DNA of 64,000 nt from Terriglobales bacterium (lineage in GTDB: Bacteria > Acidobacteriota > Terriglobia > Terriglobales > Acidobacteriaceae). Below the pieces are notes generated by a model, which made no database searches, was not told where the DNA came from, and saw only the letters and a list, made by a program, of their open reading frames with translations. The stretch is from assembly GCA_025462725.1 (NCBI GenBank), contig JAOAPE010000003.1, forward strand, positions 186,001-250,000, given 5' to 3'. Numbering within the stretch: position 1 is the stretch's first letter; each line of letters begins with the position of its first letter. Below, one piece after another: positions 43,470-54,669 of the stretch. The translations under genes were made by a program, and so were the position numbers.

Positions 43470-43554
43470 GCGAGAGTGGCGGAATTGGCAGACGCACCAG
43501 ACTTAGGATCTGGCGGGTAACTCCGTGGGGGTTCGAGTCCCCCCTTTCGCACCA
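43470..43554 (+). tRNA. tRNA-Leu (anticodon UAG)
   Basis: 85 nt with encoded CCA. Acceptor GCGAGAG pairs with CTTTCGC. The anticodon stem CCAGA/TCTGG encloses loop CTTAGGA (anticodon TAG). A short variable arm is present, and the T-loop reads GTTCGAGTC. An 18-bp inverted repeat (TCTCAATT-AC-AATTGAGA, 43448-43465) ends 4 nt before the mature 5' end. The 3' part of this gene is duplicated 85 bp downstream (see the repeat entry). Confidence 0.96.
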
Positions 43555-43556
43555 AC

Positions 43557-43641
43557 TGTATGATGTGTTGCAGATCCTTCGGCTGCGCTCAGGATTTCGC
43601 CTGCGGGCTTACGCTAACGCTCACGCCCGCAAAGCGGCTCA
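43557..43641. mobile_element. Palindromic mini-element inserted after tRNA-Leu
   Basis: 85-bp segment between the two copies of the tRNA-Leu 3' part. It shares blocks AGATCCTTC, AGGATTTCGCCTGCGG and GCTCACGCCCGCAAA.CGGCTC with the segment beside tRNA-Gly. Two foldable parts: ATCCT...AGGAT, and TGCGGGC...GCCCGCA. No ORF, so a non-autonomous REP/MITE-like element; mobility is inferred from the repeated arrangement. Confidence 0.6.
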
Positions 43642-43697
43642 ACTTAGGATCTGGCGGGTAACTCCGTGGGGGTTCGAGTCCCCCCTTTCGCACCAAC
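43642..43697 (+). repeat. Exact duplicate of the 3' part of tRNA-Leu
   Basis: 56-bp exact copy of 43501-43556: from the last base of the 5' anticodon-stem strand through the anticodon loop, variable arm, T-arm, 3' acceptor strand, CCA and 2 nt of flank. It lacks the 5' half so cannot be a functional tRNA. The breakpoint is at the 5' edge of the anticodon loop. Confidence 0.95.
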
Positions 43698-53795: not shown

Positions 53796-54413
53796 ATGCG
53801 ACAGCGGTTCATCTTCGCTCTGATTTGTTTGGTGGCAATGACGGTCTCCGTCAAGGCAGATTCGATCTTCTTGAGCGGCACCATACTCAATGCAGATCAG
53901 GTCAACCTGCATAATTTCACCATCTTAAAGAGTGGAGTGTACTCATTCCGGTTTGCGGGCACTGCCGATTTTGATCCGAATTTCTCACTCTTCTCTAACA
54001 ATGGGAATCATCACATTATCTCTGGCGACGATTCTGCAGCCGGATTGTTCCCGTATTTCGAAGTGTCGCTGCCTGCAGATCCTTACACCATAAGCGTTGC
54101 CATCTGCTGCACATTCGCGAACGCCACAAATGTTGAGATGAACACCATCTACGATGCTTATGATGGTTTCGGAAACTGGGGAAATTGGTTTGCCTTCGGC
54201 GGAACTGGAAAACTGGCCGATGGGTTCACCAATTACGGCTGCGTTTTTGACGGCGTGCAGCAAGGCCCTGAGTGTAATATGCCCGGGAATTACATGGTAG
54301 AAATCGCTTACGTTGAGCCACCGACGGCTCCGGTCCCGGAGCCGACAAGCCTGCTCTTGCTGGGGACGGGCCTCCTGGGGTTTGCAGGACGCACCCGCAA
54401 AAACAAGTATTAG
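53796..54413 (+). CDS. PEP-CTERM sorting-domain protein
   Basis: 205 aa exported protein. Signal peptide residues 1-21 (LICLVAMTVSVKAD). Mid-region beta-rich (FAGTADFDPNFSLFSNNGN). The C-terminus is a textbook PEP-CTERM anchor: VPEPTSLLLLGTGLLGFAGR followed by a basic tail (TRKNKY). It should be recognised by an exosortase and linked to exopolysaccharide-associated surface. Exosortase is not in the window. Confidence 0.88.
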   Translation: MRQRFIFALICLVAMTVSVKADSIFLSGTILNADQVNLHNFTILKSGVYSFRFAGTADFDPNFSLFSNNGNHHIISGDDSAAGLFPYFEVSLPADPYTISVAICCTFANATNVEMNTIYDAYDGFGNWGNWFAFGGTGKLADGFTNYGCVFDGVQQGPECNMPGNYMVEIAYVEPPTAPVPEPTSLLLLGTGLLGFAGRTRKNKY

Positions 54414-54446: not shown

Positions 54447-54521
54447 TGGAGCGGGAGACCGGGATCGAACCGGCGACATCCAGCTTGGGAAGCTGGCGTT
54501 CTACCGCTGAACTACTCCCGC
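54447..54521 (-). tRNA. tRNA-Gly (anticodon CCC)
   Basis: 75 nt with encoded CCA, minus strand. Acceptor GCGGGAG/CTCCCGC, D-arm with AGTTCAGCGGTAGAA, anticodon stem CCAGC/GCTGG with loop TTCCCAA (anticodon CCC), T-arm GCCGGTTCGATCCCGGT. The 5' part of the gene plus leader is duplicated 102 bp away on the 5' side. Confidence 0.96.
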
Positions 54522-54528
54522 CCGGTAG

Positions 54529-54630
54529 TGGTTAGATTGTAGATCCTTCTGCCCCGCTACGCGTGGCATCAGGATTTCGCCTGCGGACTCCCGCAAGCCT
54601 TGCGGCTTGCTCACGCCCGCAAAACGGCTC
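54529..54630. mobile_element. Palindromic mini-element beside tRNA-Gly
   Basis: 102-bp segment homologous to the one after tRNA-Leu, same plus-strand orientation and same right end (CGGCTC then the tRNA copy). It contains its own perfect CCGCAAG-C-CTTGCGG hairpin within the outer TGCGG...CCGCA pair. No coding potential. Confidence 0.6.
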
Positions 54631-54669
54631 AAGCTGGCGTTCTACCGCTGAACTACTCCCGCCCGGTAG
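54631..54669 (-). repeat. Exact duplicate of the 5' part of tRNA-Gly
   Basis: 39-bp exact copy of 54490-54528. It covers 7 nt of 5' leader and the tRNA from its first base through U33 of the anticodon loop. It ends between U33 and C34, so the breakpoint is inside the anticodon loop. Because the gene is on the minus strand, this half-copy lies upstream of the intact gene in transcription order. Confidence 0.95.

Follow-up and report, generated by a model that had tools for sequence, protein, structure and literature searches.

Two tRNA genes with displaced copies of their own halves

The stretch of DNA analysed here, referred to as the window, comprises 64,000 nucleotides and contains intact genes for tRNA-Gly(CCC) and tRNA-Leu(UAG), each accompanied by a displaced copy of one of its own halves (Table 1). 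A short folded element, termed E, stands between the copies; X denotes the gene part that completes the intact tRNA, d the filler between E and X, and X' the displaced part on the far side of E. By our reading of the sequence, the tRNA-Gly locus is flanked by the end of a PEP-CTERM-type protein (54000-54413) and by a CheB-like protein (54857 onward).

Table 1. Features of the tRNA-Gly and tRNA-Leu loci in the window
Feature	Positions	Strand	Description
Intact tRNA-Gly(CCC)	54447-54521	-	ARAGORN, Rfam; nucleotides 1-30 within X, remainder is the native side B
X at tRNA-Gly	54492-54528	-	tRNA 5' part plus 7-nt leader completing the intact gene; 37/37 identical to X'
d at tRNA-Gly	54529-54541	-	13-nt filler separating X from E, with TACAAT inside; genome G003 has a similar one
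E at tRNA-Gly	54542-54632	-	two adjacent hairpins; fixed end TTGAG at 54632-54628; nhmmer hit
X' at tRNA-Gly	54633-54669	-	displaced 5' half plus leader, joined to the native upstream flank
Intact tRNA-Leu(UAG)	43470-43554	+	ARAGORN
X at tRNA-Leu	43502-43556	+	3' part plus 2 nt
d at tRNA-Leu	43557-43572	+	16 nt
E at tRNA-Leu	43573-43642	-	fixed end TTGAG reads from 43642, minus strand
X' at tRNA-Leu	43643-43697	+	displaced 3' part of tRNA-Leu

An earlier, sequence-only reading had described an exact 39-nt copy at tRNA-Gly, which is real (54490-54528 equals 54631-54669), and tRNA-Leu is laid out likewise. The break that it placed between U33 and C34 has to be moved, because two letters of the copy belong to the element, whose end reads ...CTCAA (TTGAG on the other strand) and whose last AA inflates the apparent repeat. 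The true junction in tRNA-Gly is CCAGC^TT, after nucleotide 30, and that in tRNA-Leu lies between nucleotides 32 and 33. The 102 nt separating the Gly repeats resemble the tRNA-Leu insert at 43557-43641, in agreement with the earlier proposal of a single element family with a constant right end at both tRNAs. The repeat spacing is 141 nt at both genes, which looks like a coincidence, as the family ranges from 85 to 255 nt over 115 cases. No direct repeats of 30 nt or more were listed in the window besides the tRNA-Gly and tRNA-Leu pairs.

The suggested survey of tRNA genes for exact half copies was carried out over the window's genome (G000), covering flanks to about 1.5 kb on either side and exact repeats of at least 15 nt, and among 48 tRNA-family matches only tRNA-Gly and tRNA-Leu showed them. 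The other exact repeats were a 20-nt match linking two tRNA-Thr genes and two 16-nt repeats outside tRNAs. One tRNA-family match of 116 nt (L065, G000:C56:350836-350951) received no ARAGORN tRNA call. Around tRNA-Gly, where the earlier reading had suggested that a half-tRNA transcript may be made, two -10-like hexamers were recognized by eye, TAGAAT on the minus strand at 54690-54685, upstream of X', and TACAAT at 54541-54536, within d and ahead of the intact gene; a consensus scan returned no promoter.

Structure of the element

E consists of two adjacent hairpins, with one end fixed at TTGAG and the other variable. Read from the fixed end, it comprises TTGAGSCG, the stem GCGGGC..GCCCGC, WGSCGAA and then ATCCTGAGC..GAAGGATC, and the hairpin foot is TTGAGSCG in the 26 aligned copies. 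Folding of the tRNA-Gly copy as single-stranded DNA (54537-54630) gave a z-score of -4.27. Covariation was assessed on an alignment of 25 of the 37 listed sequences together with copy L103, in which 95.7% of cells pair, against at most 47.5% for slid structures; two-sided changes affect 4 pairs, a number reached by 6 of 500 shuffles, and 25 cells, reached by none of 500. In an Rfam search the gathering score was reached by the tRNAs only, with no model for E. The window's genome also contains lone scattered hairpins resembling the second hairpin of E and followed by GACA (L014, L015, L018).

Distribution among genomes

E was detected at an E-value of 1e-4 or better in 38 of 120 genomes, the window's own among them, and family f1 accounts for 34 E-bearing genomes among the 72 searched. 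In total, 238 distinct copies were gathered from related genomes, 228 of which were usable after 10 with short flanks or N were left out; hits without the first model positions were dropped as well. These copies are not a random sample, because they were gathered by similarity to the tRNA-Leu element or by one pattern. An exact pattern scan of named genomes returned at least 118 stretches, and the 80 listed comprise 79 acidobacterial bins (metagenome, by title) and one Amycolatopsis; two viral-contig stretches went through the general survey. A single 80-base query found no match in phage and plasmid records, and no published description of the family was found in the one open-access library searched. 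Elsewhere in the window's genome, E-like sites lie at the 5S rRNA end, at the 3' end of an iscS-like gene, at groEL and at one more place, these and all other protein-gene names being our reading of the sequence.

Insertion is documented by empty sites. The tRNA-Gly site is empty in G004 and filled in G002, whose adjoining sequence is almost identical; it is likewise empty in G001 and filled, with similar filler, in G003 and in the window's genome. The tRNA-Leu site is empty in G001-G004, and that in the iscS-like gene is empty in G001 and G003. The inserts thus have a partial gene copy at one end and a complete one at the other, with empty sites elsewhere, as gene-restoring integrative elements do. 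At the same nucleotide of tRNA-Gly, G002 has one filler and G000 and G003 have another, and G007 has E elsewhere in the gene, so tRNA-Gly has probably been hit more than once. In G002 and G004, about 600 bp around tRNA-Gly (L336/L340) are mostly 94-100% identical, and much of either side is at ~70-85%; judged from these identities, the block probably represents a recent exchange between species.

The repeat across the family

In 115 of the 228 copies, the stretch that immediately precedes TTGAG (X') is repeated on the far side of E as X, using a score of at least 12 and an end within 2 nt of the joint, and mismatched pairs gave 1.45% as a control. Because some are array members or shared insertions, the 115 repeats, from 95 loci, are not independent events; the other 113 copies have no such nearby repeat. 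Many X/X' pairs are identical, and tandem E-d-X arrays exist, for example L176 and L183. The helical phasing of unit length was R 0.137 at 10.5 bp and 0.181 at 10.0, with 0.094 expected. In four further copies X lies farther off, and an insert of 0.4-0.9 kb separates the restored gene end from E; these inserts hold a TonB_C protein (L119), a protein matching DUF6984 below threshold (L266), an open frame for an unassigned 219-residue protein (L199) and broken frames (L147). None of the four showed an integrase.

Target choice

The tetranucleotide NAA(C/G), or NAAS, directly precedes TTGAG in 161 of 228 copies, compared with a background of 3.0%. GAAC accounts for 60 copies and CAAG for 31, so that an exact tetranucleotide of the GAAC/CAAG type abuts the fixed end in 91 of 228, and about half of the junctions read CTTGAG. 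After exclusion of called tRNA and T-loop-like sites, NAAS is still found in 90 of 150 copies, with GAAC down to 5 and CAAG at 23 (28/150 for the exact words), so the GAAC and CAAG words may largely be a T-loop effect.

ARAGORN-called tRNA genes hold 51 of the 115 repeats, and by our sorting the breaks fall at the T-loop GTTC in 29, in the anticodon arm in 12, in the D arm in 8 and elsewhere in 2. The 3' part is duplicated in 34 of the 51 and the 5' part in 17, dictated by the strand of the motif; the earlier statement that element orientation and not tRNA direction sets the duplicated half is thereby borne out. Among the 64 repeats outside called tRNA genes, 21 end like a T-loop, bringing the T-loop share to 50 of 115 altogether. 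The remaining 43 repeats lie neither in a called tRNA nor at a T-loop-like site, and at least five of them (in L150, L190, L198 and L305) look by eye like tRNA copies. Besides tRNAs, E hits 5S rRNA together with its terminator, and the starts or ends of protein genes, which look like infA, mnmG, hspR, dnaJ, lysC, atpA, typA and an ABC permease.

Origin of the gene-end copy

X usually stops close to the end of the gene that it completes. It ends between -3 and +7 nt from the tRNA end in 36 of the 51 called tRNA cases; among the other 15, five overrun by 9-14 nt and ten by 16-52 nt, and in eight of these ten longest overruns d is 0, the mark of an array in which the match runs into the neighbouring unit. 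In the protein genes read, the start of X lies no farther than about 30 nt from the start codon, or X finishes at the stop codon or close to it. The filler d showed no excess likeness to the displaced flank in 73 cases (mean rank 0.527; ungapped identity 0.252 versus 0.254 for other flanks). Between copies, 427 pairs share d at a score of at least 17; those among the 70 listed are mostly insertions in the same tRNA or arrays, and some others look like one insertion in two genomes.

Codon differences between X and X' in 12 protein genes comprise 74 synonymous and 7 other changes. In the six cases at the 3' ends of genes, with X' located past the restored gene, the counts are 42 and 1; p is ~6e-6 for one non-synonymous in 35 changes, with the 35% expected being our assumption. 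The genes were picked by eye, keeping 11 of 27 rows with long open frames (66:7) and adding L161 after re-alignment, and four array members were dropped as well. In the 16 excluded rows, 9 differences are synonymous and 64 are not; these rows are mostly wrong frames, repeats and tRNA ends, and the gapless version of L161 is among them. Automatic choice of the reading frame gave 53 synonymous and 71 other differences with many frames wrong, and was abandoned in favour of a B-side rule. In L161, one of the six 3'-end cases, the displaced copy carries a 1-nt insertion and hence a frameshift, as would be expected once a copy has become useless; the gapped re-alignment gave 8:0 plus one frameshift.

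The synonymous excess suggests that each copy was still coding when X and X' diverged, which would place their divergence in different genomes or alleles. On the other side, the leader letters that X and X' share within a genome (CTACCGGC or CTACCGGGC) favour a local origin of X, and so does the iscS-like gene, in which both X and X' read CAC TAG, stop codon included, at the place where relatives read CAT TGA. E is also found at the end of a permease gene in three genomes (L407 in G155, L260 and L214). In G155, two tandem units differ from each other by one letter and from the outermost copy by 8 synonymous codons and 1 other, counted by eye; in L260, neither X nor X' is clearly nearer to the relatives, again by eye. 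Together, the stop of X near the gene boundary, the lack of likeness between d and the displaced flank and the synonymous excess point to X probably coming with the element, as in gene-restoring islands, on a unit of ~85-255 nt.

Proposed mechanism and candidate enzymes

The reading that we place first, and believe and doubt in about equal measure, is that E-d-X is a mobile unit joined after NAAS by an HUH-type enzyme, with X rebuilding the interrupted gene. E would be a two-hairpin terminus whose outer TTGAG joins the host just past a short target, in most cases NAAC or NAAG; d would be filler brought by the unit; and X would be the unit's own copy of the gene end, its last letters again forming a target, so that the unit would span from TTGAG to ...NAAS and be exchanged at NAAS sites. 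A 141-nt unit in the order E-d-X would thus have inserted in tRNA-Gly after ...CCAGC, with X restoring the gene so broken and the end native to the host, X', remaining outside as a remnant. Here and in the family at large, X would travel in the unit and arrive with the element rather than being copied from the target. An HUH-type single-strand transposase would read E together with the short motif, somewhat like the one-ended transposition of IS91/IS801, and copies may be lost through recombination between X' and X.

One-ended transposition of IS801 was described at the targets GAAC, GGAC, CAAG and CGAC (PMC3189936), and by that account IS91/IS801 resembles E in having one fixed end and a variable end at a target-like tetranucleotide and in being able to mobilize neighbouring DNA. 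Differences lie in the target, which is looser for E outside T-loops, and in the distribution of the enzyme: the IS91 transposase domain Y2_Tnp (PF04986) has no match in the window's genome, matches in 26 of 120 genomes and in 11 of the 34 E-bearing f1 genomes, and none of 30 scanned IS91-type loci contains E. We know of no IS91 event that rebuilds a gene.

Y1 transposases of the REP/REPIN systems (RAYT, TnpAREP) are the other candidates, as REPs are likewise short hairpins and a Y1 match is present in all 34 E-bearing f1 genomes versus 28 of 38 without E (p = 0.001, ignoring relatedness and completeness). Class 3 and TIRYT types occur in Acidobacteria, for which PMC6006769 and PMC3733652 report unusual hairpin families, and most REPs carry GTAG or CGTC tags according to the latter, whereas the foot of E is TTGAGSCG in 26 copies. 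E differs further in lying within just 2 of the 30 Y1 loci scanned (20 + 10). To our knowledge, REPs do not carry gene-end copies.

Alternative explanations

An unlikely alternative is that a transposase of E leaves long, variable target-site duplications and that selection keeps those reaching the gene end. Such duplications are made by IS1634 and IS1549, and the clean insertion relative to empty sites, the many identical X/X' pairs, the single fixed end with its specific motif and the leader letters common to X and X' within a genome would all suit this explanation. However, a duplication should extend into the flank, whereas most repeats halt close to where the gene ends; d bears no relation to the flank in the 73 cases; and the 42:1 ratio at gene 3' ends is unexpected for a copy made in place. 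Plain target-site duplication was rejected on the comparison of d with its own flank, which showed nothing.

We also regard it as improbable that the E-d-X units are relics or satellites of gene-restoring elements with a tyrosine recombinase, the integrase acting in trans and X corresponding to the attP replacement block. In the examples given in PMC10111431 and PMC9897764, the attP of integrative elements in tRNA genes or icd carries a replacement sequence restoring the gene, and the layout of E-d-X is that of these icd and tRNA islands and prophages, with a displaced gene end on one side and the element's copy completing the intact gene on the other. That tRNA genes are the commonest target speaks for the same origin. 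Against it stand the size of the units, the lack of an integrase in the four larger inserts and the 17 of 51 called tRNA cases in which the 5' part is duplicated: the island examples in PMC9897764 measure ~9-23 kb, whereas E units are mostly 85-255 nt, carry no integrase and occur at the 5' and 3' ends of genes alike.

Replication slippage or template switching at the hairpins, duplicating locally and followed by homologous exchange between species, appears still more doubtful. It would account for the tandem arrays, for the nearly identical block shared by G002 and G004 around tRNA-Gly and for the shared leader letters, but leaves both the constant joint NAAS^TTGAG and the unrelatedness of d to the flank unexplained.

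A mechanism aimed at anticodon loops had been proposed because both window tRNAs break at the edge of that loop; it is very improbable, being contradicted by the family survey, in which 12 of 51 called tRNA breaks lie in the anticodon arm versus 29 at the T-loop and the breaks track NAA(C/G)^. Its broader part, a targeting mechanism, holds insofar as the targets are specific, tRNA genes being hit most often (51 called and 21 T-loop-like of 115). An assembly artefact, suggested by two exact spacings of 141 nt, a k-mer size of a common assembler, and by the many metagenome bins (79 of 80 titles listed), is practically ruled out by the several styles of contig names (NODE, k141, k107, k147, scaffold), the spacings of 85-255, the compensatory changes in E and the diverged X/X' pairs.

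Relation to other mobile elements and significance

With the mobile unit as the preferred reading, two further known systems can be compared. Integron cassettes have a folded palindromic site, attC, can carry a gene and form tandem arrays, all of which recall E; their insertion is not known to leave a gene-end copy, and their core is GTT, whereas about half of the E junctions read CTTGAG. A classical MITE has terminal inverted repeats and a short target duplication of fixed length, whereas E has one fixed and one variable end, with no flank duplication.

The E-d-X units form a new variety of gene-restoring mobile element, set apart by their small size, by occurring at either end of a gene and by the shortness of their target. 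More tentatively than for the mobile unit itself, we suggest that these may be minimal integrative cassettes, consisting of ~70-nt folded ends and a gene-end copy and moved by an enzyme acting in trans, that in many species would home to one set of conserved genes (chiefly tRNAs, at the T-loop, but also 5S rRNA and infA-, mnmG- and dnaJ-like genes) and sometimes deliver a passenger gene without damage to the host gene.

Gene-restoring insertion has so far been a matter of many-kilobase islands with an integrase; here it is seen with units of mostly 85-255 letters in dozens of genomes. Such units would trace the tRNA and rRNA fragments of E-bearing genomes to one cause, would show in nature how conserved genes can take up an insertion without a scar, and would allow a direct test of the enzyme that joins NAAS to TTGAG.
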